Shown: positions 7,749-23,724 of the stretch, in pieces
How positions within the stretch are numbered: the stretch's first letter is position 1
Layout: each line of letters begins with the position of its first letter
Source: Loktanella sp.
Lineage (GTDB): Bacteria > Pseudomonadota > Alphaproteobacteria > Rhodobacterales > Rhodobacteraceae
Assembly (NCBI GenBank): GCA_024686085.1
Contig: JAIBDT010000008.1
Coordinates: 1-64,000 of the forward strand
Direction of reading: 5' to 3'
DNA length: 64,000 bases
Notes under the pieces: model-generated
Database searches by the model: none
The model's input: only the letters and a program-made list of their open reading frames with translations
What the model was told of the DNA's origin: nothing
Position numbers and translations under genes: made by a program

Positions 7749-7784
7749 GCGGGGCCACTTTTCGGCAGCCCCGCAAGATTTTTA
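7749..7784 (+). terminator. terminator-like hairpin after the SOUL gene
   Basis: A GC-rich stem GCGGGGC (7749-7755) pairs with GCCCCGC (7768-7774), followed by AAGATTTTTAG. It lies 9 bp after the SOUL-gene stop and between two convergent genes. Confidence 0.6.
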
Positions 7785-9047
7785 GCCAAACATGTCCGCA
7801 GTAATACCCGCATACCAACCGACCGATTCCTCATAGGTCGCCTTGCGCAGGGCGTCGCTTTCGCCTGTGGACGATACAAAGCCATCAACCTTGGCAATCT
7901 TTTCCGCCGTCGCTTCATAGGTGGCACCGACCTTCACACCATTGTTGGTGTCGATCAGCGACCAGCAGGTGTTCGAAAACTTGGCAGGGAACACAGTCGA
8001 ACCCGTCAGCGCGCCGCGCACCGCATTGGCGCAAACTTTGGCCTGACTATTGGCCGAGAAACCCGATTTGGGCATATCGCCTTGGTGACTTGCATCGCCC
8101 AAGACATAAATATCGGCATCCATCTTGCTGCTCATGTCTGCGGCATTCACAGGCGCCCAGTTGCCCTCCGTCACACCCGCAATCTGCGCAATACGACCCG
8201 CCTTCATCGCAGGAATAACGTTGCAAACATCAACCTTGTTGACGTCACCATCAATCGAGATGGTCATCGCATCGGGATCAACTGACACATTGGCACCGCC
8301 AAAATCGGGACCCACACGTTCAATCATCCCGGCGTAATGGGTGTTCCACCCTTCCTCGAACAGACCCTGCTTCGAGAAACTCTCTTTCGGATCCGCAATC
8401 AAGATCTTGGCCGTCGGGTTTTCCTTTTTGAGCAAATGGGCGGCCATCGAAATCCGCTCGTATGGACCCGGCGGGCAGCGGAACGGATTGGGCGGAGCCA
8501 CCATCGCAAACGTGCCACCTTGGGGCATCGCCAAAATCTGGGCGCGCAAAAGCTCGGTCTGCGATCCGGCCTTATAGGCATGCGGCATGGCGTTCTGGGC
8601 ACTCAAATTCCAACCCTCAACCGCACCATCTACAAAGTCGATGCCGGGGCTGAGGATCAGCTTGTCATATGGGACAGACCCACCACCCGCCAGCGCCACC
8701 GCCTTTGCATCGCGGTCCACATCCACCGCCCAATCATGCACCACATTGATGCCCTCTGCGGCGAGATTACCGTAAGAATGGGCCAGCGATCCGATATCGC
8801 GGAAACCACCTAGATAAAGGTTCGAGAAAAAGCAGGTGTAATAGGCGCGGGTCGGTTCGATCAGCGTAACCGCGATCTGGCCCTTGCTGTCCTTGGCAAT
8901 ATAGCGGGCGACCGTCGCGCCACCGGGGCCACCACCCACAACAACCACATGCGGCACGCCATGTCCGGCAGCAAACGCCATCGGGGCCGCAAGGCTGGCA
9001 CCCGCCGCCGACGCCGTGCCCAAGAAACTACGTCTGTTCATCTTCAT
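7782..9047 (-). CDS. soxF: sulfide dehydrogenase flavoprotein subunit (SoxF/FccB type)
   Basis: A 421-residue FAD protein related to the flavoprotein of flavocytochrome c sulfide dehydrogenase, which oxidises sulfide in the periplasm and passes electrons to the cytochrome subunit. It has a Tat leader (NRRSFLGTASAAGASLAAPMAFA), a Rossmann motif (VVVVGGGPGGATVARYI), the conserved TCFFSNLYLGG block, PPNPFRCPPGPYERISM with one redox cysteine, YVLGDASHQGDMPKSGFSANSQAK, and a C-terminal cysteine in FSNTCWSLI. The ATG at 9047 has GGAGG upstream. The cytochrome gene lies 28 bp upstream on the same strand. No other sox gene is in the window, so this pair may act alone in sulfide oxidation or detoxification. 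Confidence 0.88.
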   Translation of the reverse strand: MKMNRRSFLGTASAAGASLAAPMAFAAGHGVPHVVVVGGGPGGATVARYIAKDSKGQIAVTLIEPTRAYYTCFFSNLYLGGFRDIGSLAHSYGNLAAEGINVVHDWAVDVDRDAKAVALAGGGSVPYDKLILSPGIDFVDGAVEGWNLSAQNAMPHAYKAGSQTELLRAQILAMPQGGTFAMVAPPNPFRCPPGPYERISMAAHLLKKENPTAKILIADPKESFSKQGLFEEGWNTHYAGMIERVGPDFGGANVSVDPDAMTISIDGDVNKVDVCNVIPAMKAGRIAQIAGVTEGNWAPVNAADMSSKMDADIYVLGDASHQGDMPKSGFSANSQAKVCANAVRGALTGSTVFPAKFSNTCWSLIDTNNGVKVGATYEATAEKIAKVDGFVSSTGESDALRKATYEESVGWYAGITADMFG

Positions 9048-9075
9048 CGTTACGTCCTCCCTAATATTCACCTTG

Positions 9076-9777
9076 TCACTCAAGGTCTTTGAAATACGCC
9101 GCAAGCGCCGCGATTTCCTCGTCCGACAATCGGCCCGCCATCATCTGCATCACAGGATGCGTGCGCAGCTTACGCTTGTAGGCGTGCATCGCGACAACAA
9201 AGTCCTCCGCAGGCCACTGGGTGATCGACGGAATCCCGTCAGCACCACCATCCGCTTGGTGACACGTGGTGCATTCCCCCGCCAAATACGCGCCATACTC
9301 TGGGTCACCAACAATCGCCAAAATCGCAGGATCAATATCATGATCGGTGCCTTGGGCGGTTGGCATCGCCTCTGGAATATTCGCTGGACTGGCCGAGAAA
9401 CTGCGCAAATACGCGATCACATCAGCACGGTCCTGCGGGTCAGCAAGACCGCGAAAGTTCATACGGGTCTTGGACACCAGCGACTTTGGGTTCTCAAGAT
9501 AAACATCCAGCGTTTCCAAGTCCCACGTGATGCCATCAACACCGGCACGCACCAACCCCTCGGAATAGGGAAAATCATCCAGACTACCCGCTTGGCGCCC
9601 AAACACCCCATTCAACTGCGGACCGATGCGGTTCTTGGCACCTGCGCCGACCTGATGACAACTGGCACATTGGCGAAAAATGGCCTCGCCGCGGGTCACA
9701 TCGCCCGCATCTTCGGCCAGAACCGCCGATCCCGCGAAAAAAGCAGCCAGCACAGTAAATCGCAAGTGACGCAGCAA
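9076..9777 (-). CDS. soxE: diheme cytochrome c, sulfide dehydrogenase subunit (SoxE/FccA type)
   Basis: A cytochrome c of about 233 residues with two CXXCH sites, CASCH in the first half and CTTCH in the second, each in a class I cytochrome c-like domain (NRIGPQLNGVFGRQAG and a later Met region MQMMAGRLSDEEIAALAAYF). It has an export signal ending SAVLAEDAG. It pairs with the flavoprotein just downstream as the electron acceptor subunit. I chose a TTG at 9777, which has GGGAGG 7 nt upstream; an in-frame GTG at 9804 has no ribosome site. Either start keeps the signal peptide. Confidence 0.87.
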   Translation of the reverse strand: MLRHLRFTVLAAFFAGSAVLAEDAGDVTRGEAIFRQCASCHQVGAGAKNRIGPQLNGVFGRQAGSLDDFPYSEGLVRAGVDGITWDLETLDVYLENPKSLVSKTRMNFRGLADPQDRADVIAYLRSFSASPANIPEAMPTAQGTDHDIDPAILAIVGDPEYGAYLAGECTTCHQADGGADGIPSITQWPAEDFVVAMHAYKRKLRTHPVMQMMAGRLSDEEIAALAAYFKDLE

Positions 9778-10007
9778 AACGGGGCCTCCCAACCTTACAT
9801 TCACATATTCAGGTTAAAGAATGGCGCCCATAAGTCAACTTTTCCGCCCTTCAACACAGTCATCGCTACGTGTTGAAATTACCATTTTGGGTTGTTAGCT
9901 TAGAACAAGGCTTGCGTTTGCTGTTAAAACTTGCGCAATACCTCTTTCGCCAGAAAACTGGCACCATCTTCATGGCCGTGATCGCGGCGCTTACAGGGAC
10001 CGCCCCA

Positions 10008-10394
10008 ATGACCACTCGTAAATCCGCCAATAGCGAAAGCATCTTGGCAGCTGTCCTGAAATCGCTCGACGACGACAAAGGCGAAGACATCGTGCAGATT
10101 AGCCTCGCTGGCAAATCCTCTATGGCCGACCACATGGTCATCGCCTCAGGGCGATCCACACGGCAAGTGACCGCCATCGCGGAAAAGCTGGTGGATCGGC
10201 TTAAGGCCGAATTTGGCGTGATCTGTAAGGTCGAAGGCCGCACAACCGGCGACTGGGTTCTGGTCGATGCAGGCGACGTGATCGTGCATATCTTCCGCCC
10301 GGAAGTTCGCGAGTTCTACCAACTCGAAAAGATGTGGCAGCCCGGCCTTGGTCCGGCATCCGAGCCCCCCGTCGAAGCCCCAACAGCAGACTAA
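10008..10394 (+). CDS. rsfS: ribosomal silencing factor RsfS
   Basis: RsfS (Iojap/YbeB), 128 residues from the ATG at 10008; it binds ribosomal protein L14 and blocks subunit joining in starvation. The family core is clear: ILAAVLKSLDDDKGEDIVQISLAGKSSMADHMVIASGRSTRQVTAIAEKL and DWVLVDAGDVIVHIFRPEVREFYQLEKMW. The stop codon overlaps the rlmH start by one base, the conserved bacterial arrangement. The frame is open further upstream (in-frame ATG at 9975) but those residues do not resemble the family. Confidence 0.95.
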   Translation: MTTRKSANSESILAAVLKSLDDDKGEDIVQISLAGKSSMADHMVIASGRSTRQVTAIAEKLVDRLKAEFGVICKVEGRTTGDWVLVDAGDVIVHIFRPEVREFYQLEKMWQPGLGPASEPPVEAPTAD

Positions 10395-10864
10395 TGCGTG
10401 TGCACATCTGCGCTGTGGGCCGACTGCGTAAAGGGCCAGAGCGCGATCTTTACGACGACTACCTCACCCGTTTTGACCGGACAGGTCGCGCATTGGCCCT
10501 TGGGCCCGCGCAACTGATCGAGGTCGAGGACAAAAAAGGTGGCGGCATGCCCGCCGAGGCAGCGCTCCTCGAACGTGCCATCCCGACGGGGTCGCTGATC
10601 TGCGTGATGGACGAACGGGGCAAATTGCAATCATCCCCGCAATTCGCCGAAACCTTAGGGAACTGGCGCGACCAAGGACGGCAAGACGTGGCCTTTGTGA
10701 TCGGCGGGGCAGACGGCATCGACCCTAGCCTGCGCGACCGCGCCGACGCATCCCTGTCTTTTGGCAAGATGGTCTGGCCACATATGCTGGTGCGGGTGAT
10801 GCTAGCCGAACAACTCTACCGCGCGGCATCCATCCTGTCTGGCGGGCCGTATCATCGGGTTTAA
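10394..10864 (+). CDS. rlmH: 23S rRNA (pseudouridine1915-N3)-methyltransferase
   Basis: RlmH, 156 residues, the normal length; a SPOUT-class methyltransferase that methylates pseudouridine 1915 of 23S rRNA using S-adenosylmethionine. The start MRVHICAVGRLRKGPERDLYDDYL, the SAM-binding knot FVIGGADGIDPSLRDRA and the C-terminal SFGKMVWPHMLVRVMLAEQLYRA are all diagnostic. The ATG overlaps the rsfS stop by one base, so the two are translationally coupled. Confidence 0.97.
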   Translation: MRVHICAVGRLRKGPERDLYDDYLTRFDRTGRALALGPAQLIEVEDKKGGGMPAEAALLERAIPTGSLICVMDERGKLQSSPQFAETLGNWRDQGRQDVAFVIGGADGIDPSLRDRADASLSFGKMVWPHMLVRVMLAEQLYRAASILSGGPYHRV

Positions 10865-10885
10865 GGCGCGCTTGGACAAAGGTCA

Positions 10886-11056
10886 CTAGCTGATCTCTTG
10901 CTCGGCTTTGCGCGGACAGGCCGCACAATCGGCACCTGGCACACAGGCCAAGCCACCACACGATCCTTTGATCGGCGCGCGCCCGAAAATGACGCCCAAC
11001 GAGAGTGCGACAAACGCAATCGCGATTATTCCCAAGCTCAGAATGAATGTGGCCAT
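10886..11056 (-). CDS. nqrM: Na+-NQR maturation protein NqrM
   Basis: A 56-residue protein of the DUF539/NqrM family, which helps insert the iron of the NqrD/NqrE iron-sulfur centre. It has one N-terminal membrane helix (TFILSLGIIAIAFVALSLGVIF) and then the conserved basic-cysteine region IKGSCGGLACVPGADCAACPRKAE with four cysteines. It is the last gene of the nqr operon, 7 bp after apbE. The ATG at 11056 is preferred over an in-frame TTG at 11071 that would overlap apbE. Confidence 0.88.
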   Translation of the reverse strand: MATFILSLGIIAIAFVALSLGVIFGRAPIKGSCGGLACVPGADCAACPRKAEQEIS

Positions 11057-11063
11057 ATCTGTT

Positions 11064-12035
11064 CTATCCAATCCGTCGTTTTGCGAAATCTGCCGTCATG
11101 ACTTCGCGCAGGTCGACATGTTCCCGCACCAAAAACACTGCGGGAATTTGATGGTCGTGCGCGAAGTCAGGGCCGTCCCGCGGCCCCATTGCATATAGTG
11201 CGGTCGCAAAGGCGTCGGCAGTCACCGCATCGGGCGCAAAGACGCTCACGGATGCCAATGCGCTCTGCGTCGGGCGCTGGATTTGCGGGTCAATAATGTG
11301 GCTATAGCGGTGACCGGCGTGAAGATAGCTATTCACCGCATCACCCGAGGTCGCCAAGGCTTCGCGATCTAGCCGGACCGCCATTTGAAGACCACGCGCC
11401 CCTGCGATCGGGTGCTCAATGCCAGCGGTCCAAGCACGGCCTTCGGGGTGCAGACCATAGGCAAAAACCTCCCCGCCAAGCTCAACAAAAAAGTCGCGAT
11501 GCCCAAGCCGCACAAGTGCCGCAGACATCTGGTCCAAAGCAAACCCCTTAGCGATCCCGCAAAGGTCCAAAGTCTGTGCAGGATGCGATTTTTGCAGTCC
11601 AGTCTTAGAGACGACGATGTCCTGAAATCTGCCCGCTGGCGCGCTATCGATGGGGCCAAACCCATAGCGTCCCGTTACGCCACCCAAGGTCGGATCAAAC
11701 GCGCCATGCGTGATCTGCGCGATACGTTTGGCCTCGGTCACTGTCGTCAGGATATCGGCTGAAACGGGTTGCATCCGTGTCGTCAGGTTGCTGTTAAAGA
11801 TCGAAATTTCAGACGTCGGTTTAAACGGCGACATCATCGCATCGACGGACATAATAATGCGGGTCAGCTTGGATGCGACCACATCCGCATTAGCACCAAC
11901 CGGCAGGCTTACGCGCCAACGCGCGCCAAAGGCAGGCCCCTCAAGCACGACCAGATCGCCACCCTGCGCCCATAGCCTTGTCGCCGAAAGGCTACAGGTC
12001 GATCCAACAATAAATGCGCGACGTGTCAGGGTCAT
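11064..12035 (-). CDS. apbE: FAD:protein FMN transferase
   Basis: ApbE, 323 residues, Mg2+-dependent enzyme that uses FAD to attach FMN covalently to threonine in NqrC/NqrB-type proteins. The leader is Tat-like (TRRAFIVGSTCSLSATRLWA), consistent with acting in the periplasm. Family blocks: MMSPFKPTSEISIFN, the FDPTLGG motif, DLCGIAKGFALDQM, the FFVELGGEVFAYG block and ALATSGDAVNSY. It sits between nqrF and nqrM in the same transcript (3 bp after nqrF), as expected for the NqrC flavinylating enzyme. Confidence 0.95.
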   Translation of the reverse strand: MTLTRRAFIVGSTCSLSATRLWAQGGDLVVLEGPAFGARWRVSLPVGANADVVASKLTRIIMSVDAMMSPFKPTSEISIFNSNLTTRMQPVSADILTTVTEAKRIAQITHGAFDPTLGGVTGRYGFGPIDSAPAGRFQDIVVSKTGLQKSHPAQTLDLCGIAKGFALDQMSAALVRLGHRDFFVELGGEVFAYGLHPEGRAWTAGIEHPIAGARGLQMAVRLDREALATSGDAVNSYLHAGHRYSHIIDPQIQRPTQSALASVSVFAPDAVTADAFATALYAMGPRDGPDFAHDHQIPAVFLVREHVDLREVMTADFAKRRIG

Positions 12036-12038
12036 TTG

Positions 12039-13262
12039 TCAGGCTCCAAAATCATCGTTGAAAATCTGGTCTGGATCGACGCCCAAATCATCCAGCATCG
12101 CAAGGACTGCCTTGATCATCAAAGGCGGGCCACAAAGGTAGTATTCGCAATCGTGTGGGGCGGGATGTGCGGCAAGGCCACATCGTAAGGCCACCGCGTG
12201 AATATAGCCGACTTCTCCGTGCCAATTGTCTTGCGGGGCAGGATCCGACAGCGCAGCAGTCCAGTCAAAGTTCGGATGGTCTTTCTCCAAACGCGCGAAC
12301 TCGTCTTCATAAAACAGGTCAATTTCGCTGCGCGCACCAAACCAAAAGCTGATCTTGCGGGTCGTCTTTTTGTTTTCCAACTGGTCGGAAATGATGGCGC
12401 GCAACGGGGCCATGCCCACGCCACCGCCGATGAAAACCATCTCGCGGTCGCTTGGTTGCGCCGCAAAGGTACCAAACGGGCCTGACACAGTCGCGGCGTC
12501 TCCGGCTTTCAGGCCAAACAGCCATGACGACACAACACCCGGCGGGACATCAGGCTGATCTTGCGGCGCAAGTGCAAGGCGGATCAGCAAGGTTATCTGC
12601 CCGCCCTTGTCATTGGCATGGGTCGCGATGGAATACGCGCGGGTTTGCTCTGATTTGCTGCTGGCGGTCAGCCCGCCAAGCGCCATCTCGGCCCACGCTG
12701 ACTGATGCTCGGGGGCGATATCGTAGTCGGCATAGCGCAAGGCATAGGCAGGCGCAGTGACCATCACAAATTCGCCGGGCGTAAAAGTAAACGGTGTGCC
12801 AGCCGGAAGGTCCAAGACAATCTCGCGGATCAGCGGCGCAATCGTGCGGCTGGACGCAACGCGACAGTCCCATTCTTTAGCGTCAAGCACGGTATCAGGC
12901 AAAACGATCGACATGTCGGCGCGCAAAGCGGTTTGACAGGCCAACCGGACGCCATCTGCAATATCGCGACGCGACAGGATCGCCATTTCGGTTTGCGCGG
13001 GCGCAGGTCGGCCCTCCATAATTTGCACACGGCATTGGCCGCAGGTACCTGCACCGCCACAGGCGGACGGGATCGCAATCTTTGCTTGGCCCAGCGCCGA
13101 CAACAGCTTGGTGCCTGTGGTTGCCGCAAGACGTCTGTCGTGATTGATGATAATCGTGACAGGCTTCGACGGCATCAGCACTGCACGCGCAGCCAGTACC
13201 GCAATCGCCAGCAGCAGCACAATTGTCACAAAAACCGCAACACCAAGGTAGACCTCTGTCAT
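12039..13262 (-). CDS. nqrF: Na+-translocating NADH:quinone reductase subunit F
   Basis: NqrF, 407 residues, the NADH-oxidising subunit. It has an N-terminal membrane anchor ([23 protein letters not shown]), a [2Fe-2S] ferredoxin domain with Cys pattern [14 protein letters not shown] and a fourth Cys in RLACQ, then an FAD domain with RAYSIA and an NADH-binding C-terminal domain ([16 protein letters not shown] and [14 protein letters not shown]). All expected cofactor motifs are present, so this subunit looks active. It overlaps nqrE by 4 bp. Confidence 0.96.
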
Positions 13263-13861
13263 GGCAGGCTTACCCCCACAAAGGCCGAGAACCCCATCGA
13301 CATCAGGCCCGTGACGATAAACGCCACCCCAAGACCACGCAGGCCCTCGGGCACATCAGCATAACGAAGCCGTTCGCGAATGGCGGCAAAGGCAACAATC
13401 GCAAGCGCCCAGCCGACACCGCTGCCGATGCCATAAACCAAACTTTCGGGCAGATCATAGCGGCGCTCAACCATAAACAAACTCCCGCCAAGAATGGCGC
13501 AGTTCACGGTAATCAGCGGCAAAAACACCCCTAGGCTGCGGTGCAAGGCAGGGGCGTAGCGATCAAGCGTCATTTCCAGAATCTGGACAGTAGCAGCGAT
13601 CACGCCGATGAATGAAATCAGCTTCAGATACGTCAAATCTATCTCGGGCAGCCCCACCCATGCCCACGCGCCCTCGACCAAGAGGCCTTGAAAAATCAGG
13701 TGATTGATCGGAACGGTCAGCGACTGCACAACGATCATTGCAGCACCAAGGCCCAAGGCCGTTTCAACCCGTTTTGACACTGCCAAAAAGGTGCAAACCC
13801 CTAGGAAAAATGTCAGGGCAAGGTTTTCCTGAAAGACAGATCTGAGGAAGATTTCAATCAC
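13259..13861 (-). CDS. nqrE: Na+-translocating NADH:quinone reductase subunit E
   Basis: NqrE, 200 residues, six predicted membrane helices. The two conserved half-repeats each carry a cysteine ([14 protein letters not shown] and [13 protein letters not shown]) that, with the matching pair in NqrD, bind an intramembrane iron-sulfur centre. [19 protein letters not shown] and [23 protein letters not shown] are typical. Overlaps nqrD and nqrF by 4 bp each, so translation is coupled. Confidence 0.95.
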
Positions 13862-14520
13862 GATTTTTCCTCCCCGACCTGCAAGATAATCGGAAAATCA
13901 TTGGGCTCAACCTGTGCCGGACGGCGGGTCCGAATGACCCAGATCAGCACCCCGATAATGAAAAACGCACTTGGCGCCAAAAGCATAAACCCAAGCGGTT
14001 CAAACCAGCCACCCTCGGCCGCCAGCGGCATGACCGTAACACCAAAAAGCGCGCCCGCCCCGAGCAACTCGCGGATCGCAGCCACGATCATCAAGATCAG
14101 CCCATATCCCAAGCCGTTGCCAACACCATCCAGAAAACTTGGCCAGACGGGGTTGTGCATCGCAAAAGATTCCGCACGACCCAGCACGATGCAATTGGTG
14201 ACAATCAGCCCCACAAAGACCGACAGTCGCTGGCTGATCTCAAACGCGAAAGCACGCAGCACTTGGTCGGTGACAATCACCAAGGACGCGATAATCGTGA
14301 TCTGCACGACAAGACGAATGGACGACGGCAGATGCGCCCTGATCATGCTGATCAACGTGCTGGCCGTGGCCAGAACTGTCAGCAGCGCAAGGCCCATGAT
14401 CAGCGCGGTATCAAGCGCGGTTGTGACCGCAAGCGCCGAACAAATCCCCAGCATTTGCAGCGTAACAGGATTATTGTCGATCAATGGCGCGGTCAGATGG
14501 TGCAGGTTCGATTTGCGCAT
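13858..14520 (-). CDS. nqrD: Na+-translocating NADH:quinone reductase subunit D
   Basis: NqrD, 220 residues, six predicted helices; homologous to NqrE. The conserved cysteines are in [17 protein letters not shown] and [14 protein letters not shown]. The C terminus ([16 protein letters not shown]) is cytoplasmic. Lies 2 bp after nqrC and overlaps nqrE by 4 bp. Confidence 0.95.
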
Positions 14521-14522
14521 TT

Positions 14523-15329
14523 TCAGAACTCCTCTGCCTTGAGGCGCGCCAGAAAGGGACCGTAACCCAGATCGCCCAGCCAGAACTGCACAAGGTTCGT
14601 CACACCCGTCGTGGACCGCGTGGCCCCCGTGATACCGTCGACTTGGGTGGGCGTGCTGGCCGCGCCGCGCACAACCGTAATCGTGACCTCACCTTGGTCG
14701 TCCAAGGTCCGCTTGCCAGACCAAAGCGCCTGCCACGCAGGGTCGGTAATCCGTGCGCCTAGGCCCGGGGTCTCGCCTTGCTCATAAATGCTCAGCGCGG
14801 CAATCGTGGTCAGGTCACCATGCAATGCAAGATAAGCGCGGATCGTGGATTGATACCCCGTGCCATAGACTGGCAAAACGACAAGCGCCAAACCCTCTGT
14901 CCCGCGCAGGATATAGACGGGCGCAAGGTTGGGACGCTGTCCGATTTTTGCAGGGTCATCGGATGCGGCAAGGGGTTTGCTTTGGGTGACATCCGATTGC
15001 GCGGTCAGAAAATCAAATGTGGCGGCATCTTTTGTCGGATCAATTTGACCTGTGTCCATAGCGACGATGACGGTCTGCAACGATTGCGCGCCTGTCTCGC
15101 GCATCACGTCAGCCAAACCCGGCAACGTGGCAACCATCGCCGCAAGCTTTGCCTCGCGCGCGGCCTGAACATGTGCCTCTTGGCGCGACTTCAGAGCGAC
15201 CGATGTGGTCGACACAGCGATAGCCGCCACCAGCGACACAAGGAACGCCACGCCAAGGGTTTTGGTGCGACTATCATTGGGCAGCGCAAGGAACCTGCGC
15301 CATAATGCAACGGGTGAATTACGGCTCAT
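14523..15329 (-). CDS. nqrC: Na+-translocating NADH:quinone reductase subunit C
   Basis: NqrC, 268 residues from the ATG at 15329, which has GAGG upstream. It has one N-terminal helix ([23 protein letters not shown]) and a periplasmic FMN domain. The flavinylation motif is present near the C terminus as [12 protein letters not shown], where the Thr of TGAT is the expected covalent FMN site, and [17 protein letters not shown] is the usual upstream block. So ApbE in this operon has at least this target. Overlaps the end of nqrB by 11 bp. Confidence 0.94.
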
Positions 15330-16125
15330 ATCTTTGCCTCTTCGCCCTGCGCCGCACATTGGCATAAACCGCAATCTGGTCGAGCAACGGCGCGAATATA
15401 CTGACTAGAAGTGCGGCAAAAACAACCGACGACAGCGAGCCAAGTCCAACACCTGCTTGGCCCAAAAGGATCACCAAAGCGCCAGCAAGCGCACCATACA
15501 GCCACCGGCCAAGATGTGTGCTTGCACCCGCAACGGGATCACCAATCAAGAAAACCAAACCCAGTATGACGGTCGCACTTTGCAGGTTTTGCAAGTCTGC
15601 TGAGGCAGGCAAGAACGGGACCAACACGGCAATGCATAGGCCAAACGCCGCAACGATCCGCCACGACAACACCCCATATGCCAAAAGCAAGGCACCACCC
15701 AAGCCCGCCACAATCGCTACCTGCGGGGCTCCGCTGTCAGGCTCTATCGCGGGAAACGAGAATAGCAAGAACGCCAAACCAACAACCGCCGCATTCAGAA
15801 AACCACGCCCGCGGACCCCGAAAATAAGATCCCCGAAAACCAGCCCAAAAGACAGCGAGATAACAAGCTGCCAAACGGGCGTCGCAACTGGCAAAAGCAC
15901 TACAAAGATCAACGCGCTGATCAAGCTGTGCCACTGGACTGTCGATTTACGCAAAACCGAGAACACAAATGACCACAGCAGACCAAGACTTAGGCCAATT
16001 GCAACGGGGGCAAACATCTCAGGACCACGCAGAATAACGGTCGCGATCACTGGCAGCAAAAGCGCCACAAAGGTCGCGGCCGACATCCGATGGGCATCCC
16101 AGTGAAGTGGCGCGCTTTTCATCAT
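15319..16125 (-). CDS. nqrB: short NqrB-like subunit lacking the usual FMN site
   Basis: NqrB-like membrane subunit, but only 268 residues; characterised NqrB proteins are about 410. Matching regions are DLIFGVRGRGFLNAAVVGLAFLLFSFPA (residues 99-126), then GLVFLIGDPVAGASTHLGRWLYG and the C-terminal FAPLLDQIAVYANVRRRAKRQ. In ordinary NqrB the FSFPA block is followed by a periplasmic loop with SGAT, whose Thr carries FMN. Here residues 131-134 read SGAP and the next membrane helix begins almost at once, so that loop and its Thr appear to be missing. The N-terminal region is also shortened. Start: first of two ATGs, overlapping the nqrA stop as ATGA. See findings. Confidence 0.85.
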   Translation of the reverse strand: MMKSAPLHWDAHRMSAATFVALLLPVIATVILRGPEMFAPVAIGLSLGLLWSFVFSVLRKSTVQWHSLISALIFVVLLPVATPVWQLVISLSFGLVFGDLIFGVRGRGFLNAAVVGLAFLLFSFPAIEPDSGAPQVAIVAGLGGALLLAYGVLSWRIVAAFGLCIAVLVPFLPASADLQNLQSATVILGLVFLIGDPVAGASTHLGRWLYGALAGALVILLGQAGVGLGSLSSVVFAALLVSIFAPLLDQIAVYANVRRRAKRQRYEP

Positions 16126-17351
16126 GCGACGCCCTCGCTCAGGATCAGATTCAAGGTATGGCGCAAAAGTTGACCATAGTCGCAGCCCGACGGGCAAAGC
16201 CGCGTCAACGGCGCCATGTCCTCTTCGATAAGTTCCAAACAGCCCAACCGCTCTGCGGTTTCAACGTCACCGACAGCTAAGGCGCGCATCAACGGGACGG
16301 GCAAAATAGCAAACGGAAATGCGCGCTCGAACGCCTCCGTGGGCAGCGTGGCACCCGTCGGCGCCGCGGGAAGCGCATCCAATATGCGATGCCAGAACGA
16401 CCCGCCCGCGCTATCCGTCTCTAGCGCCGAAATCTGCAAATCCCTGCGCGCCAAGTAATCGCACTTCTGGCCAGTCAAACGCGATCCAGAAAGCAAGTTA
16501 TCAGGATCAAAATGATCCATCCCGCCCACCACTTCGGATAGCTTTGCGCCAAGCGGTACAATCGCGACTTCGGCCATTTTGGCACCCGATACCGACACAG
16601 ACCTTGTGGTTTTGATCTGCGCGGTCGCCAAAAGATGGCCGATCGCCACGACATCCTGATACCCGATGTCCCAAACCATACGCTGGCGCGAAACGGGCAT
16701 AAGGCGGTGAATTTGCGGGCCAGCATTGCCCGACGGATAAGGGCCAGAGAACGTCGCGATTTTCAGCCTGTCGCGCGGGGGGGACAACGGCGCGCCCTTG
16801 CGCTGACAGACAAAAACCGGACACGTCGTGAGCTGCAAAAGCGCCGCTACGCCACGCTCAAAATCCACGGTCTCGGTTGTCAAAACCACATGCGGATCGA
16901 GGGCTTGCGGGGTCGACTTTGTCGTGGTCACAAAGATGGCGGCAGGGGTGGCCGTCGGATCAGGGATCAGACCAAATGGACGGGTGCGAAAGCTGGGCCA
17001 AGCGCCCGCCTTCAACAGCAATTTGCGCAGATCGCCCTTGGCAAAGTTAACGGCGTCATCACCAGCACCCGTGATCTCCAACATCTCCAAGCGGCGGCGC
17101 GGACCAAGTTTAATCTGGCTGACATGGCCACTTGCAGCAGCCGCAAAACAGATCTCGGGGCGACGGCGATCCACGCAAAGCGTCTGACCCGCGCGAACCG
17201 CGTCACCCTCTTTGACACGCAAATCAAAGACGACATTGGGATAATCATCCCCCAGCAGCGCAACGGTCTTTACCGCAGGCGTCTTAAGCGGCGCACCTTG
17301 GGGTGTTGGCCCAAGCGGGGCCTCAATGCCGCGACGAGTGTCGTAGTGCAT
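16122..17351 (-). CDS. nqrA: Na+-translocating NADH:quinone reductase subunit A
   Basis: NqrA, 409 residues, somewhat shorter than the approximately 445 of gammaproteobacterial NqrA. It is the cytoplasmic peripheral subunit. Recognisable blocks: VKTVALLGDDYPNVVFDLRVKEGDAVRAGQ, AAASGHVSQIKLGPRRRLE, WPSFRTRPFGLIPDPTATPAAIFVTT, FSGPYPSGNAGPQIHRLMPV, and the C-terminal LCPSGCDYGQLLRHTLNLI. The ATG has AGGAGCGACC upstream. It follows the pentaheme cytochrome gene by 10 bp on the same strand. Confidence 0.93.
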   Translation of the reverse strand: MHYDTRRGIEAPLGPTPQGAPLKTPAVKTVALLGDDYPNVVFDLRVKEGDAVRAGQTLCVDRRRPEICFAAAASGHVSQIKLGPRRRLEMLEITGAGDDAVNFAKGDLRKLLLKAGAWPSFRTRPFGLIPDPTATPAAIFVTTTKSTPQALDPHVVLTTETVDFERGVAALLQLTTCPVFVCQRKGAPLSPPRDRLKIATFSGPYPSGNAGPQIHRLMPVSRQRMVWDIGYQDVVAIGHLLATAQIKTTRSVSVSGAKMAEVAIVPLGAKLSEVVGGMDHFDPDNLLSGSRLTGQKCDYLARRDLQISALETDSAGGSFWHRILDALPAAPTGATLPTEAFERAFPFAILPVPLMRALAVGDVETAERLGCLELIEEDMAPLTRLCPSGCDYGQLLRHTLNLILSEGVA

Positions 17352-17361
17352 GGTCGCTCCT

Positions 17362-18444
17362 TTAAGGACGCTGAAATCCGGTTGTGTCGATTTCGGCGAC
17401 TTCGGAAAGGTTCTCGATACTGTCGATCATCAGCTGAATGACGTAATGCGGGTTATGCGCAAATGCGCCGCTATCCTTGGCAACAAATTGATAGTTATAG
17501 GCCGCCTTCAACAGACGCGGGGTCCAAGATTGATACCGATTGGGGAAAACCGCCTCGATGCTATCTGCGGCGCCATCTGTGTTGAGATCACGAAAGAAGT
17601 AGGGATAGGCGACCTCTGAATAGGCAATCGGGTTATCGGTCACCTGTTTTGCGTAGACCATGATCGCGACCTTCAGCGCGGCGTGCAGGTCTTCGATAAC
17701 CACGCCAATGCCCGCTGTGGGGTCACCATTCATCAAGATATCAAGTTGGGTTGTGCGGATGGCACGAAACTCGGTCACGCCTGCGTGGCAACTGGTGCAG
17801 CTTTCCAGCGCAACCTCTGTCTTGTGCGGGTCATGGCAGCTGACGCAGGTATCAAGACCCTCAACATGGGCAAACGGCCCCGCGTAACTGCGACCCTCAT
17901 ACTGATAGCCACCGCGCATGGTGCCGCCCAATTGGGTCGACGTCGCCGCCGCATAGTGGATATTGATAAACGCGATGTCGGGATAGACGGTATCATCCTC
18001 CAGATCGACTACACGCGCGTCGACTTGGTCCATCGAACTGCGGCCTTGGTGACAGACAGAACAAATCGCGGAACTATCTGGCACACTGACGGTTTGACCG
18101 TTCGGGAACAAAACGCGGTCTAACGCTTTTGCGTTATCATTGTGGCAGGCCGCGCACTCAACCGACGTCCCAACGGGAACGCTATGGTCAATCAGGCCTG
18201 CGGTCGTTGCGGGTGTGCTGAGATAATCAATGACGCCTGTGGCAGAGTGGCAAACTGCGCAAGTGCCGGGAATTTCGCCCTCAGTATCCCAATGGCGAAA
18301 CGCTTCGGACGTTGAATCCGCATGCGGCGAAGACAGCCACGCATCAAGAATTTCAAGGTCGGTCGGTTTGTCATCCGCTGACACTGGCCCCGCAAAAATG
18401 ACCCCAATCAACAGCAATAACAACGCTATAGCCCTTTTCGTCAT
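17362..18444 (-). CDS. pentaheme c-type cytochrome heading the nqr operon
   Basis: A 360-residue protein with a signal peptide (AIALLLLLIGVIFAGPVSA) and five CXXCH heme sites at about residues 62-66 (CAVCH), 97-101 (CAACH), 128-132 (CSVCH), 200-204 (CVSCH) and 216-220 (CTSCH). The C-terminal 140 residues have no heme site and may form a quinone-, partner- or FMN-contacting domain. It is expected to be periplasmic. It starts at an ATG with GGAGG upstream and lies 10 bp before nqrA, so it should be co-transcribed with all nqr genes. I do not recognise a named family; a role in passing electrons to or from the NQR periplasmic face is inference. Confidence 0.88.
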   Translation of the reverse strand: MTKRAIALLLLLIGVIFAGPVSADDKPTDLEILDAWLSSPHADSTSEAFRHWDTEGEIPGTCAVCHSATGVIDYLSTPATTAGLIDHSVPVGTSVECAACHNDNAKALDRVLFPNGQTVSVPDSSAICSVCHQGRSSMDQVDARVVDLEDDTVYPDIAFINIHYAAATSTQLGGTMRGGYQYEGRSYAGPFAHVEGLDTCVSCHDPHKTEVALESCTSCHAGVTEFRAIRTTQLDILMNGDPTAGIGVVIEDLHAALKVAIMVYAKQVTDNPIAYSEVAYPYFFRDLNTDGAADSIEAVFPNRYQSWTPRLLKAAYNYQFVAKDSGAFAHNPHYVIQLMIDSIENLSEVAEIDTTGFQRP

Positions 18445-18583
18445 AGCAGCACCTCCAGCAAAATTTTGAACCTTCCAACAACACATAACAGGTCTTTCAC
18501 ACGCTAGGATTGATCCACATCAACGTGGCCAGCCGAGGTCTATGCTTGGGTTGTCTGGCGACGAAATGCAAAAGGGGTTCAAC

Positions 18584-20185
18584 ATGACCGACATCAAAAT
18601 TAAATTCTGCGGCGCGGCCGGACACGTCACAGGGTCCTGCTATCTTTTGCAAACCCCCCAAAGCACATTCTTGGTCGATTGCGGCCTGTTTCAAGGGTCC
18701 AAAAAAGTCAGGGCGCTGAACTATGAACCTTTCCCCTTCCAACCGCAGGACGTCGATTTTGTGCTGCAAACCCATGCGCATATTGACCACTCGGGGCAAC
18801 TGCCCAAGCTGACGTCGACGGGCTTTAAGGGAAAGATTTTTGCGACCGAAGGGACGCGGGATTTACTGACCTTCATGCTGCCCGACAGTGGCTATATCCA
18901 AGAAATGGAAGTCGAACATCGCAACCGTCGCAATCAGCGGCGGGGGAAACCTGAAGTCGCGCCCATCTACACCCGCAAGGACGCAGAGGACTGTTTGGCT
19001 CATATCGTGGCCTTGGATTACGAAGACTGGGTGCAGGTCGGACCAGACGTCCGCGCACGGTTCTGGAACGCGGGGCACATCCTCGGGTCCGCCTCAATCG
19101 AGGTCGAAATCGACCAAGAAGATGCACCAGCACTGCGGCTTTTGTTTTCGGGCGACATCGGACCTGACAATAAACTTTTCCATCCCGACCCCGACGCGCC
19201 AGCCGACTTTGACTACGTCATCTCGGAATCGACCTACGGGAACCGAGAGCGGCCAGAAACATCGGTAGATGCGCGCCGGGCCGCACTGCAAACCGAGGTC
19301 GCCCGTGCGCTGGCAGGCGACGGCATGTTGCTGATCCCCGTCTTTGCGGTCGAACGGACACAAGAACTGATCACTGACATTCTGGCGCTGCAAAAAGCGG
19401 GTGACATTCCAAGCGCGCCAATCTTTCTCGACTCGCCATTGGCGATCCGTGTCACCAGAGTTTTTCAAAAACACAGCGGTGATTTAGAAGACCTCAGCGT
19501 CAGTCCACAGCTTTTGAATAGCCCGCAACTTCATCCCACCCAGACGACCGATGAAAGCAAAAGCATCGCAAAGATAACCGGTGGGGCGATCATTCTTGCG
19601 GCAAGTGGGATGTGTGACGCGGGCCGCATCCGGCACCACCTCAAGCAATGGCTCTGGCAGGAAAAAGCCACCGTTTTGTTTGTCGGCTATCAGGCGCAAG
19701 GCAGCATGGGACGTCGCATCAGCGAAGGTGCAAAACGCGTGACGATCCAAGGCGAGGACATCAAGATCAACGCAAAAATCCGCAAACTCGATGCCTATTC
19801 GGGACACGCAGATGGGGCCGAATTGGCGAGTTGGATTTCAGAACGCAAACCGATCCAAAAGGCGCTGATCCTGACACATGGCGAAGAAGACCAGATGGAC
19901 GCATTGCATGATAAAGTCATCGCACTTGGGATCGACGCCCGTCGGATCGTGATGCCTGCACTGGACGACGAAATGGTCTTGTCGGCGGCGGGTAGTCTGA
20001 CCCTTGTCCCTGCGCAAGAACAACGCGTCAAACCCGCCAAACCAAAGTCCCCCGATTGGGACAATGACCTTGCCGAACTGGTCAACGCGGTCAGAGACGG
20101 TTTTCACGCCGCCGCCGACGATAAGGCGCGCGCGGTATTTGTGCGTCAGCTTCGCAAATCGCTGGACCTCGACAAAGCGGGCTAG
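18584..20185 (+). CDS. MBL-fold RNA exonuclease, beta-CASP family
   Basis: A 533-residue cytoplasmic metallo-beta-lactamase/beta-CASP protein of the YSH1/CPSF-73-like group, expected to process RNA. Zn ligands are seen in THAHIDHSG, NAGHILGSASIEV and LFSGDIGPD, the beta-CASP part has GMLLIPVFAVERTQEL, SGMCDAGRIRHHLKQW and FVGYQAQGSMGRRI, and a terminal SGHADGAELASW and LTHGEEDQMDAL. The start ATG at 18584 has an AAGGGG ribosome site upstream. Divergent from the pentaheme/nqr operon. Native RNA substrate unknown. Confidence 0.9.
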   Translation: MTDIKIKFCGAAGHVTGSCYLLQTPQSTFLVDCGLFQGSKKVRALNYEPFPFQPQDVDFVLQTHAHIDHSGQLPKLTSTGFKGKIFATEGTRDLLTFMLPDSGYIQEMEVEHRNRRNQRRGKPEVAPIYTRKDAEDCLAHIVALDYEDWVQVGPDVRARFWNAGHILGSASIEVEIDQEDAPALRLLFSGDIGPDNKLFHPDPDAPADFDYVISESTYGNRERPETSVDARRAALQTEVARALAGDGMLLIPVFAVERTQELITDILALQKAGDIPSAPIFLDSPLAIRVTRVFQKHSGDLEDLSVSPQLLNSPQLHPTQTTDESKSIAKITGGAIILAASGMCDAGRIRHHLKQWLWQEKATVLFVGYQAQGSMGRRISEGAKRVTIQGEDIKINAKIRKLDAYSGHADGAELASWISERKPIQKALILTHGEEDQMDALHDKVIALGIDARRIVMPALDDEMVLSAAGSLTLVPAQEQRVKPAKPKSPDWDNDLAELVNAVRDGFHAAADDKARAVFVRQLRKSLDLDKAG

Positions 20186-20203
20186 GCGCAAAATGCAGGC
20201 ACC

Positions 20204-21214
20204 CTAGGGCGACATACTTGTCATACTGATCCTCTTGACCCGCTTGTCCTGCCCAAACGAGATCACGGCATACCAGGCAGCATAACTCCGCCGATCAGTC
20301 GCGCAGGACAGCATCGCAAACCTGTCCGCCGTCGGGGCCTCGCCGCTTGGGACACGGCCCAGAATACGGATCACCTCGCCACGGCTCAGGCCCACCTTCA
20401 GGCCAGAAGGCATCTGCCATTTGTGTTCGGTCGACTGCATGTCCGTCACCACACCACGTAGAACATCAATGCGCAGACCAATAAGATCCAAGCGGTCAAT
20501 CTCGACGCCGCTGCTTGTGATCTCTCCAGTCCGCTCGGGCGTCCCCAACTTGCCCAGCCTGTCCATCGGATCAGCCATCTGCATACCAGCAAACACGAAC
20601 TCAGCCGCAGGCAGGCATTCCTCAAGAACGCCATTGTATTCCTCATCCCGCATGATCGGATCTGGGGCATCGGTAAGCGTTGGCATCCATGTCTCGGACG
20701 CAGAATCCCACGTCAAACCCGCGTTCATTTTGGCGTCATGAATCCCGCCACCAAAACCATAGCTGACCGTGTCTGGGATACATTCAAGGCGACTTAATTT
20801 CTCACCGTTTTTTGCGACGTCAATCCAGCCCAGATGACGCGGGCCCAGCGCCATTTCCTCATCCGAAAACGGGCGGTCAAATCCACCCATCACCTCATAA
20901 CTATAATCACCATTATAAAACGTGACGCTTTCTGTGATCGCTTTGCCAAGACCGTTCCACCCAGCAAAATCGACGCGTTCAATCGTCTCGGTCAGTACCA
21001 GTTCAGGCGGCCCGCCAATTGGGCCATACGCATAACGCGCAACCTGATCGTCAAAGCAGACAAACACCTCCGTACTGCGGCCCGCGATCTGGCAAGACGT
21101 AAACGGCTCTTGGCCCTGCGGACAGTCCGCATAAGCGGCACCAGCCGCTAAAACGTGCAAAACGACCACGCCAATTCCGAAATACTGTCCCAATACTCGA
21201 ACCCCTGCGCTCAT
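20204..21214 (-). CDS. secreted hypothetical protein, 336 aa
   Basis: It has a signal peptide (VLGQYFGIGVVVLHVLAAGAAYA) and a mature part starting DCPQGQEPFTSCQIAGRSTEVFVCFDDQVARYAYGP, a block seen in Rhodobacteraceae proteins of unknown role. Later there is FYNGDYSYEVMGGF and, near the C terminus, LKVGLSRGEVIRILGR, which resembles a SmpA/BamE-like domain. Several cysteines could form disulfides. It is convergent with the beta-CASP gene and lies upstream of the FAD/GcvT gene on the other side. No function claimed. Confidence 0.65.
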   Translation of the reverse strand: MSAGVRVLGQYFGIGVVVLHVLAAGAAYADCPQGQEPFTSCQIAGRSTEVFVCFDDQVARYAYGPIGGPPELVLTETIERVDFAGWNGLGKAITESVTFYNGDYSYEVMGGFDRPFSDEEMALGPRHLGWIDVAKNGEKLSRLECIPDTVSYGFGGGIHDAKMNAGLTWDSASETWMPTLTDAPDPIMRDEEYNGVLEECLPAAEFVFAGMQMADPMDRLGKLGTPERTGEITSSGVEIDRLDLIGLRIDVLRGVVTDMQSTEHKWQMPSGLKVGLSRGEVIRILGRVPSGEAPTADRFAMLSCATDRRSYAAWYAVISFGQDKRVKRISMTSMSP

Positions 21215-21255: not shown

Positions 21256-23724
21256 TCAGCTGCGCATATTGGCCCCGTTGGCATCATATATCGGACCACC
21301 CAGAACCTCGGCGTCATAAAACTCACCCAAGATTTCGACCTGCAACTTTGTGCCCGCCACCGCATTCTCGGCCGAGACATAGCCCATCGCCATGGACATC
21401 CCCGACCGATGACCAAACCCGCCAGAAGACACATAACCAACAGCCGCGCCATCCTTCAGGATCGCCTCGTCATTGCTGACGTCGATGCCGTCCACGTCAA
21501 TGGTCATCGTGACCAGCTTTTGCGCAGGACGAGCATCGCGAATGGCTTGCGTCGCCTCTTTCCCAACAAAGTCCTTCTTCCAGTTGATAAACGCATCCAT
21601 GCCACTTGCGACCGCATCAAAATCGGGGCGGAATTCCAGCGTCCAAACGCCCCAGCCCTTTTCCAACCGCATCGACATCAACGCCCGCGCACCATACCAG
21701 CGATACCCCAGATCAGCGCCCGCCTCTTCAATCGCCGTGGCCAGACGCAACAGGTATTGCGGCTTGCAGTAAATCTCGTAGCCCAACTCGCCCGAGAAAC
21801 TGATGCGGCTCAAAATGACAGGCACGTCGCCCACAAACGTCTGGCGCAGATCACGGAACTTGAACGCCGTGTCAGACACATCATCGCGGGTAATACGGGA
21901 TAGCAGCACGCGCGACTTGGGGCCAGACAAAGCAATCCCATGCCAGTCGTCACTGACATTCTGGTAGGTCACATCAGTAGGCAGGTCCTTTTCGAACCAG
22001 CGGCGATGCGCTTCTTGCATGGCCCCCGATCCGAACAACATAAAGTGGTCATCGCCCAAACAGGCCACAGTCAAATCGCCATACAACTTGCCCTTTGGCG
22101 TTAGCATAGGGGTCAGGGTCAAACGGCCGGCCTTTGGCACATACCCCGCCAGTGTTTTGTCCAGATAAGCCCGTGCACCCGCGCCCTTGAATTCGTGCTT
22201 GGCAAAGTTGGCGATCTCGATCCCGCCCACGGCCCCTTGCACCGCTTTGACCTCACGCGCGACGTATTCATGGGACCGGTTGCGCTCGAACGTCGGCGTC
22301 TCATGGGCATCCTCAGGGCCATCCGCGAACCATAGCGCGTTCTCCAGACCAAAGCCTTGGCCCATCCGCGCACCTTTCGCGACCAACCGGTCATAGAGCG
22401 CCGTAGTTTTCTGCATCCGCCCTTTCGGCAGCGTCTCGTTGGGGAAGGTCATCACAAAGCGACGCTCGTAGTTTTCGGTCGATTTGATCGTGCCCCAATC
22501 GGGCGTCGCAAATTCACCAAAGCGCGCCACATCCATCGCCCAAACATCAATCGAGGGCTCGCCGTCAATCATCCATTCGGCCATCGTCAGCCCGACACCG
22601 CCACCCTGACAAAAACCTGCCATGACGCCCACGGCGACCCAGTAATTCTTCATGCCCGGAACAGGGCCAATCATCGGGTTGCCATCAGGGCCAAAGGTGA
22701 ACGGGCCGTTGATCATGTCCTTGATCCCCGCTTCGCCAATCGCAGGAATACGCTCGAACGACATCTCCAGACGGTCAGCAATACGGTCAAGATCAGGCTG
22801 CAACAACTCATGGCCAAAGGTCCACGGTGTGCCGCCCACCTTCCAAGGGGTGCCCTTCGGCTCGTAAGTGCCCAGCAGCATGCCTTGCCGTTCTTGGCGG
22901 AAATAGATGTTGGCCTCGTAATCAATCCCGGCAGGCAAACGACCCGCCTCGCCCATGCTTTCCATACGCTCTGCGATCAGGGGGATTTTGTCGGTGATCA
23001 GATAGTGATGCTCCATCGGCTGCACAGGCAGATTGACGCCCGACATCTGACCCACTTCACGGGCCCACAGACCACCGCAATTCACGATCTGCTCGGCATT
23101 GATCTGACCCTTTGGCGTGGTCAAATCCCAAGACCCGTCAGGGCGCTGCGATATCGCCGTGACACCGCAATGGGTGAAATACTGCGCGCCATGCACACGG
23201 GCGGCCTTGGCAAAGGCGTAAGTGGCACCGGACGGATCAAGGTCCCCATCTTGGTCATCCCACAACGCGGCATGATAATGCTTGGGATCAATCAGCGGAT
23301 GACGCTCGGCCAGTTCTTTGGGGCTGATAAACTCTTGGTTCAGGCCCATATAGCGGGCCTTGGACCGCTCGCGCTTCAGGTAATCATACCATTCCTTTGT
23401 AGAGGCTGCATAAAACCCGCCCGTAATATGCAGGCCCACAGAATGGCCCGACAATTCCTCGATCTCTTTATACAGATCAATGGTATAGCTCTGCAGACGG
23501 CTGATATTCGGATCAGACGAAATCGTATGAATTTGACCAGCGGCATGCCAGCTAGACCCCGACGTCAGCTCGTTACGCTCCAACAAGACAACATCTTTCC
23601 AGCCGAACTTTGCAAGATGGAACAGGATCGAACAGCCAACCACACCGCCGCCGATCACCACTACCTTTGCGTGGGACGGAAGCGGCTTGCCTGTGGCAGT
23701 TTCATCATTTTGAATCTCGGGCAT
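21256..23724 (-). CDS. FAD-dependent oxidoreductase with GcvT domain (dimethylglycine/sarcosine dehydrogenase-like), copy 1
   Basis: An 822-residue fused protein. Residues 1 to about 400 form a DAO-type FAD domain (KVVVIGGGVVGCSILFHLAKFGWKDVVLLERNELTSGSSWHAAG, in which the His of WHAAG is the expected covalent FAD site); the C-terminal half is a GcvT/aminomethyltransferase domain (DVSDTAFKFRDLRQTF, FSGELGYEIY). Such enzymes oxidatively demethylate dimethylglycine, sarcosine or relatives, passing the methyl to tetrahydrofolate. Exact substrate is not evident. It is divergent from a LysR gene, a likely regulator. Two more paralogues lie at 31-38 kb. Confidence 0.88.
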   Translation of the reverse strand: MPEIQNDETATGKPLPSHAKVVVIGGGVVGCSILFHLAKFGWKDVVLLERNELTSGSSWHAAGQIHTISSDPNISRLQSYTIDLYKEIEELSGHSVGLHITGGFYAASTKEWYDYLKRERSKARYMGLNQEFISPKELAERHPLIDPKHYHAALWDDQDGDLDPSGATYAFAKAARVHGAQYFTHCGVTAISQRPDGSWDLTTPKGQINAEQIVNCGGLWAREVGQMSGVNLPVQPMEHHYLITDKIPLIAERMESMGEAGRLPAGIDYEANIYFRQERQGMLLGTYEPKGTPWKVGGTPWTFGHELLQPDLDRIADRLEMSFERIPAIGEAGIKDMINGPFTFGPDGNPMIGPVPGMKNYWVAVGVMAGFCQGGGVGLTMAEWMIDGEPSIDVWAMDVARFGEFATPDWGTIKSTENYERRFVMTFPNETLPKGRMQKTTALYDRLVAKGARMGQGFGLENALWFADGPEDAHETPTFERNRSHEYVAREVKAVQGAVGGIEIANFAKHEFKGAGARAYLDKTLAGYVPKAGRLTLTPMLTPKGKLYGDLTVACLGDDHFMLFGSGAMQEAHRRWFEKDLPTDVTYQNVSDDWHGIALSGPKSRVLLSRITRDDVSDTAFKFRDLRQTFVGDVPVILSRISFSGELGYEIYCKPQYLLRLATAIEEAGADLGYRWYGARALMSMRLEKGWGVWTLEFRPDFDAVASGMDAFINWKKDFVGKEATQAIRDARPAQKLVTMTIDVDGIDVSNDEAILKDGAAVGYVSSGGFGHRSGMSMAMGYVSAENAVAGTKLQVEILGEFYDAEVLGGPIYDANGANMRS

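Follow-up and report, generated by a model that had tools for sequence, protein, structure and literature searches.

The window analysed here, a 64,000-nucleotide stretch of Loktanella sp. DNA, carries a six-gene nqr row whose NqrB, on the evidence of its sequence, has neither the covalent FMN site nor the N-terminal quinone helices; the row opens with a gene for a periplasmic pentaheme cytochrome c. The best reading of this short-NqrB system is an NADH:cytochrome c branch of the NQR family. More specifically, it is probably a six-subunit NQR relative in which electrons would pass from NADH through NqrF, NqrD/E, and the FMN of NqrC to the periplasmic pentaheme cytochrome. The features of the row are the following:

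17362-18444, minus strand: pentaheme cytochrome c, periplasmic; five CXXCH motifs; first gene of the row; Pfam matches of the cytochrome c7/c3 type
16122-17351, minus strand: nqrA; 409 aa; NQRA_N and NQRA_2nd domains
15319-16125, minus strand: short nqrB; stop included, 268 codons for 268 aa; without the FMN loop and the N-terminal quinone helices
15724-15735, minus strand: SGAP, NqrB residues 131-134; shortened periplasmic turn at the site of the FMN loop in canonical NqrB
14523-15329, minus strand: nqrC; TGAT FMN motif; 166.5 bits against an NCBIfam cut-off of 144
13858-14520, minus strand: nqrD; above the NCBIfam cut-off; Cys 27 and 110
13259-13861, minus strand: nqrE; above the NCBIfam cut-off; Cys 23 and 121
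12039-13262, minus strand: nqrF; NADH/FAD/2Fe-2S input; 465.8 bits against a cut-off of 295; Cys 68, 74, 77, and 109
11064-12035, minus strand: apbE, FMN transferase; PF02424, E 5e-61
10886-11071, minus strand: nqrM, NQR maturation factor; 61 aa; PF04400, E 1.2e-6; overlaps the end of apbE

The pentaheme open reading frame spans 17362-18486 with a likely start (MTKRAIALLL) at 18444, and the predicted N-terminus looks like a Sec signal. Its stop codon lies 10 bases from the nqrA ATG (17351), and a ribosome-binding-like aaaggag overlaps the stop. Promoter and terminator scans returned counts at chance level. About 1.1 kb behind nqrM, also on the minus strand, the window holds genes for a flavocytochrome c sulfide dehydrogenase flavoprotein (7782-9047) and a two-domain cytochrome c (9076-9804). 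The source genome (2.99 Mb, 109 contigs, 91.4% complete) also encodes the 49-kDa subunit of complex I, so the NQR row is probably not its sole NADH dehydrogenase.

The sequence-only reading had described an NqrB of 268 residues with SGAP shortly before a membrane helix, a missing FMN-bearing Thr, a largely missing loop, and a short N-terminal part, and each of these points was borne out. An AlphaFold2 model built from 64 sequences (mean pLDDT 93) places the start of the helix at residue 134. In the alignment with V. cholerae NqrB (415 aa), query residues 31-127 correspond to chain residues 122-219 and query residues 136/137-263 to chain residues 276/277-411; about 57 residues, including the FMN loop (about 220-276 of V. 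cholerae NqrB), are gone. The structural alignment pairs residues 1-266 of the model with 43-414 of NqrB, leaving chain residues 1-42 unmatched and thus also absent. The PF03116 match is likewise in two pieces, covering profile positions 14-132 and 173-292 of 296. Structural comparison of the model, alongside which a Foldseek search was run, gave Z-scores of 24.5-28.0 against NqrB and RnfD chains, and the next folds, ammonium and urea channels, reached at most 12.8. The NqrB segments that at least 80% of canonical rows possess, but no more than 25% of short ones, are 1-28, 33-46, 80-119, 215-258, 297-299, and 308-315, numbered after L025, a canonical relative. The tetrapeptide SGAP was given no weight as a relic of SGAT, as the other short sequences shown read PGT, PGP, and others.

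These losses affect defined functional sites. NqrB binds FMN via a threonine, as stated in passages of PMC10643135 and PMC12174285 (the number 236 appears in mutant names among the structure matches), and parts of the same two papers assign its N-terminal helices a role in building the quinone site. We compared 58 canonical NqrBs with 100 distinct short ones of 240 aa or more, identical sequences being counted once; most of the latter came from a pentaheme-based scan, so that pentaheme linkage inside this set is given by construction. The column of the covalent FMN Thr is empty in 100/100 short NqrBs and holds T in 58/58 canonical ones. The quinone-pocket residue F159 is kept in 1/100 and the quinone-contact residue N156 in 0/100 short sequences, against 58/58 canonical sequences in both cases. 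Among the acids proposed to line the Na+ path (D52, E157, and E273, as listed in the part of PMC10643135 that treats them), aligned D52 is kept in 33/100 short NqrBs, E157, the proposed Na+ entry, in 0/100 (58/58 canonical), and the Glu that ends the lost loop, numbered 274 and thus one off in our alignment, in 4/100. D397 is kept in 100/100. The riboflavin site gave a mixed picture. The sequence-only reading had also placed riboflavin contacts in the shortened part, which is only partly right: all four polar riboflavin residues tested are kept in 43/100 short NqrBs (58/58 canonical; T/S and D/E allowed), and in the window T162, N200, N203, and D346 align with S, G, N, and D.

In contrast to NqrB, the input side of the complex keeps its motifs. 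The earlier statement that the other subunits retain theirs (TGAT in NqrC, four cysteines in NqrF, two each in NqrD and NqrE) was confirmed for the window, and nearly all short operons agree. All four NqrF cysteines are present in 98/98 short operons, the NqrD cysteines in 97/98 and 98/98, and the NqrE cysteines in 98/98. NqrC carries S/TGAT in 96/99 short operons, with one AGAT and two sequences with Ser for Thr; the canonical motif is AGAT in 49/58 and SGAT in 9/58. NqrC, NqrD, NqrE, and NqrF of the window pass their NCBIfam NQR cut-offs, whereas NqrA (TIGR01936, 272.5 against 321.05 bits) and NqrB (TIGR01937, 116.9 against an equivalog threshold of 349.9 bits) do not. NqrA is itself shortened, about 22 residues of the canonical C-terminal half being gone, mainly 344-365 (L025 numbering). 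Kept motifs on the one side and two subunits below their cut-offs on the other place the main losses in the NqrC-to-quinone part of the enzyme.

NqrM (PF04400) was found at cut-off in 38/38 canonical-type genomes versus 4/40 short-only genomes (that of the window, G547, G648, and G727); in G530 and G504, which hold both operon types, the PF04400 matches fall in the canonical stretches. Just behind apbE, an NqrM-like SCG motif is present in 53/93 short loci with apbE and in 0/56 canonical ones. Judged by this motif, a separate, diverged NqrM accompanies the short clade in at least the 53 loci that bear it. A looser pattern, which matched 80/93 short loci, was too permissive and was not used.

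To place the short type within its family, we relied on an NqrD search of 394 Rhodobacteraceae genomes (393 genera), in which the pentaheme gene played no part. NqrD matched in 113 genomes, seven of them below cut-off and left out of the counts (three of these seven served as RNF outgroup), and 106 genomes scored above cut-off, at 108 places. All 108 places were taken with about 7.5 kb per side, less at contig ends. They comprise 48 short operons, 56 canonical operons, and four cut by contig ends, and two genomes hold both types. Leaving aside the cut operons, NqrB is bimodal: the distance from the FxFP/FAYP proline to the GRW/GRY arginine is either 76-83 or 136 residues, with nothing between. 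The short operon is common, occurring in 48 of the 394 genomes drawn. Named strains that carry it include Yoonia maricola DSM 29128, Devosia subaequoris DSM 23447, and Jannaschia seohaensis DSM 25227.

Phylogeny was inferred from NqrD and NqrE, chosen since neither carries the deletion. The tree of 80 rows was rooted on three RNF operons as a long-branch outgroup and was drawn from NQRs of this phylum. The 42 short rows form one clade (support 88/93, without a star), whose sister group is made up of canonical rows from Rhodobacteraceae and from other families of the phylum (92/84). Canonical Rhodobacteraceae rows form a clade of their own (98/93), and all NQR rows split from the RNF operons with 100/100. 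The deletion of the SGAT loop thus recurs in a distinct clade, a positive outcome of the check proposed by the sequence-only reading, and, as this clade is sister to the classical NQRs sampled, the short type is no recent loss inside the canonical lineage. Among 24 genomes of the same genus, six have a short and three a canonical-size NqrB, and eight of these nine operons were read. The short ones are scattered over several branches of the short clade, which suggests horizontal transfer. In three genomes of another family of the phylum (L283, L284, and L285), a second, divergent NQR besides the main one gave a similar NqrD score; it proved to be canonical (402-414 aa, SGAT).

The pentaheme gene is linked to the short type. 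In the NqrD survey, it lies beside 43/48 short operons, including the visibly decayed one of G420, versus 0/56 canonical operons. This lends support to the earlier suggestion of a different electron exit and supplies a concrete candidate for this inferred exit. In the other short operons the situation varies: G749 has its pentaheme gene elsewhere, followed by an exchanger/antiporter gene; G419 has a 113-aa four-heme protein, and G513 an ethylbenzene dehydrogenase family protein with a heme motif, each divergent from nqrA; no pentaheme gene was found in the genome of G443, nor in that of G649, whose contig ends within nqrB. For two of the places cut by contig ends (G564 and G762), a separate contig carries the pentaheme gene next to part of nqrA or nqrB. 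A whole-genome search of 78 genomes found a full-length pentaheme in 2/54 canonical-only genomes, adjoining a ferric-reductase-like gene in G418 and a nine-heme protein in G414, and a marginal match in three others (G632, G497, and G535). None was found in 14 genomes without an NqrD match. Furthermore, pentaheme distances correlate with those of NqrD+E+F over 92 loci (Mantel r 0.95; 0/999 permutations as high), a correlation that is at least partly shared ancestry.

All 108 distinct pentahemes scoring above 400 bits carry five CXXCH motifs and exactly five further invariant His, the conserved distal ones. This fits a protein with five bis-histidine hemes, which would make it a carrier rather than an enzyme. 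Its structure was modelled at pLDDT 93, and no PDB entry matched at E <= 0.001. The best match, NrfA, had an E of 0.51 and a query TM of 0.38 (0.42 in the second row) and was not used as structural kin.

Among the best 80 of 134 pentaheme relatives, 66 loci have NqrB nearby (one a fragment) and 14 do not, some of these lying near contig ends. A ferric-reductase-like membrane protein adjoins the pentaheme gene in six of the 14 NqrB-less loci and in G418, and both such neighbours scanned by Pfam contain Ferric_reduct, FAD, and NAD-binding domains. The loci that pair a pentaheme with a ferric-reductase-like NAD(P)H protein and hold no NQR genes are L049, L050, L056, L059, L060, L067, and L303. 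Possibly, this pair constitutes a second, simpler export module with the same carrier. The pairing of one carrier with two NAD(P)H-oxidising membrane modules that are unrelated to each other is the strongest indication that this carrier accepts electrons delivered across the membrane from NAD(P)H.

A further association concerns cations. A gene for a PF00999 cation/proton exchanger is present at 25/100 distinct short loci and 0/58 canonical ones (Pfam was run on four). At 19 of these 25 loci, the exchanger gene lies 7-55 bases behind the pentaheme gene and has the same orientation. Examples are L033:11084-12247 and L172:2183-3403; in the window, no PF00999 gene was found within 9001-21000. The one-sided occurrence of the exchanger suggests that the short NQR system may still handle cations. 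The three largest clusters of conserved neighbours looked, by eye, like antisense shadows of nqr genes, and it was the exchanger that was followed further.

Taken together, the data can be arranged into a working mechanism. According to sections of PMC10643135, NqrC of the Vibrio enzyme shuttles from NqrD/E to NqrB and back, and NqrB is where the electrons finally reach quinone. In the short type, the motifs of an input arm running from NADH over FAD and 2Fe-2S (NqrF) and 2Fe-2S (NqrD/E) to FMN (NqrC) are kept. Since NqrB has lost its FMN and quinone sites, electrons would most simply go from NqrC-FMN straight to the pentaheme, which would relay them to periplasmic cytochromes and bypass the quinone pool. 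The remaining role of NqrB would be to dock NqrC and perhaps to conduct ions. Any Na+ pumping that persists would depend on the NqrD/E-NqrC switch rather than on an electron return through NqrB. Several observations count against this reading: the loss of riboflavin residues is incomplete, as would suit an NqrB that still binds a flavin; pentaheme genes occur without a short NQR in 2/54 canonical-only genomes and at 14 of the best 80 pentaheme loci; G443 and G649 yielded no pentaheme; and NqrA, which carries no cofactor, is retained. Going one step further, the system is conceivable as a primary Na+-pumping NADH:cytochrome c oxidoreductase in which electrons cross the membrane only once, on a branch as old as the split from the classical NQRs sampled; this further reading is less likely than not. 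Were it true, ion pumping in NQR and RNF would need only the NqrD/E-NqrC switch, not electron return through NqrB flavins.

The same set of carriers could in principle run backwards, with periplasmic electrons, for instance from sulfur oxidation, entering at the pentaheme and being driven by an ion gradient through NqrC, NqrD/E, and NqrF to NAD+. We consider such reverse transport unlikely. The sulfide dehydrogenase genes behind nqrM would suit it, as would the distribution of SoxB, which is above cut-off in 34/40 short-type genomes (38 short, two probably short) versus 22/38 canonical-type genomes (Fisher p 0.011, with no correction for multiple testing or kinship). These samples are 40 of the 50 genomes whose operon is short or probably so, among them two with an operon cut by a contig end and two with both types, and 38 of 56 others, among them one with a cut operon. 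The exchanger association (25/100 against 0/58) would fit a link to ion gradients in either direction. However, no homologue of FccA or FccB of the window was reported in eight stretches of the same genus (E 1e-4) or in the best 80 pentaheme loci (E 1e-8), which makes them a non-recurrent neighbour, and the second kind of protein paired with the pentaheme belongs to the ferric-reductase/NADPH-oxidase type. Proteins of this type run outward from NAD(P)H. The forward direction, from NADH to cytochrome, is preferred. In the same two samples, a photosynthetic reaction centre was recorded in 19/40 short-type and 10/38 canonical-type genomes (p 0.064), a contrast that was not used.

A trimmed quinone reductase would keep the classical destination: NqrC-FMN would hand electrons straight to riboflavin bound non-covalently in NqrB, from where they would reach quinone at a different site, with the pentaheme as a side branch or accessory. 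The conservation of part of the riboflavin site speaks for it, the D346 equivalent being D in 96/100, T162 being T/S in 85/100, and N203 being N in 55/100 short NqrBs, as does a proposal in portions of PMC11334425 that, in two-subunit Nqr/Rnf-like complexes without the Thr, an NqrC-type FMN reaches the flavin site of the membrane subunit. Nevertheless, the helices and residues of the quinone pocket are lost in almost all short NqrBs, and the NqrB deletion and the pentaheme occur together in 43/48 short versus 0/56 canonical operons; we regard this scheme as quite improbable. A frameshift or misassembly was named by the sequence-only reading as a refuting possibility, and decay has a parallel in G420 (L140), yet decay or misassembly is as good as refuted by a deletion common to 100 distinct short NqrBs and to 48/108 operons drawn regardless of NqrB, by an nqrB dN/dS of about 0.09-0.32 with dN well below dS in 8/8 close pairs of relatives (the window in none of them), by the confident NqrB fold, and by the kept motifs of the other redox subunits. 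A second complete NqrB that might stand in for the short one was likewise not encountered: no other PF03116 protein was found in the 91.4%-complete source genome. The operon of G420 is a short-type row with fragmented nqrA, nqrC, and pentaheme genes and is apparently decaying.

Returning to the NADH:cytochrome c reading, we compared the short type with known systems. It resembles the Na+-NQR of V. cholerae (NqrABCDEF) in having six subunits, NqrA to NqrF, in one row, ApbE and NqrM, the motifs of NqrF, NqrD/E, and NqrC, and the NqrB fold. It differs in an NqrB without FMN-Thr loop and N-terminal quinone helices, a shortened NqrA, a pentaheme gene in the row, and NqrA and NqrB scores below the NCBIfam equivalog cut-offs. 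Of the Na+-NQR features tested, four are shared (six subunits in one row and the motifs of NqrF, NqrD/E, and NqrC), four are not (the FMN Thr, the quinone helices and pocket, the Na+-path acids, and the cut-offs of two subunits), and the riboflavin site is mixed; for this reason we classify the short type as a variant branch of the NQR kind and do not call it Na+-NQR.

The closest working model for a pentaheme exit is the Rnf complex of Methanosarcina acetivorans with its multiheme cytochrome MA0658, where a cytochrome outside the membrane is the proposed electron exit; the two cytochromes are likened here by role and not by sequence. In the relevant passages of PMC4023990 and PMC12174285, RnfG-FMN is proposed to reduce this co-transcribed cytochrome outside the membrane. 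That system uses ferredoxin as donor, and its RnfD has a potential flavin motif SGTF (PMC4023990, in the part on RnfD), unlike the short type with its NADH-oxidising NqrF and the loss of the whole NqrB loop. Two-subunit Nqr/Rnf-like complexes share an NqrB/RnfD-type membrane domain without flavinylated Thr, and are proposed to move electrons in one direction only, outward from NAD(P)H (sections of PMC11334425 and PMC8238504). They differ in that their NAD-binding domain (PF00175) is fused to the membrane subunit, whereas the short type has six separate genes and an NqrB with PF03116 only. RnfD of bacterial RNF matches the NqrB model structurally (Z 24.5-27.2) and also lacks the NqrB-type N-terminal helices, according to an excerpt of PMC12174285; unlike the short NqrB, it keeps the conserved Thr, as a passage of PMC11334425 states. 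RNF further differs in having RnfB and RnfC in place of NqrF and NqrA, and the NqrD+NqrE tree groups the short clade with NQR. Among the open-licence papers searched, none was recognised as describing an NQR that lacks the FMN site of NqrB or is accompanied by a pentaheme cytochrome, and the portions of PMC11323493 and PMC7565565 consulted describe no such system.

There is no settled account of how electron transfer moves Na+ across NqrB; two of the triggers that have been proposed are reduction of the NqrB flavins and quinone. Both sit in parts that are lost or altered in the short clade, which thereby offers a natural experiment. If the short type still pumps, the NqrB-flavin and quinone steps are dispensable; if it does not, the NQR family contains a non-pumping electron exporter. 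Wherever subunits are simply named nqr, the short type would pass as an ordinary NADH:quinone pump. In the respiration of these marine bacteria, it would stand as a further exit for NADH electrons that does not depend on quinone.

Elsewhere in the window, three minus-strand genes (21256-23724, 31690-34134, and 35010-37472) encode proteins of 814-822 aa that combine an FAD oxidoreductase with an aminomethyltransferase (GCV_T) domain. They lie within 16.3 kb, and their domain content is dimethylglycine/sarcosine dehydrogenase-like.
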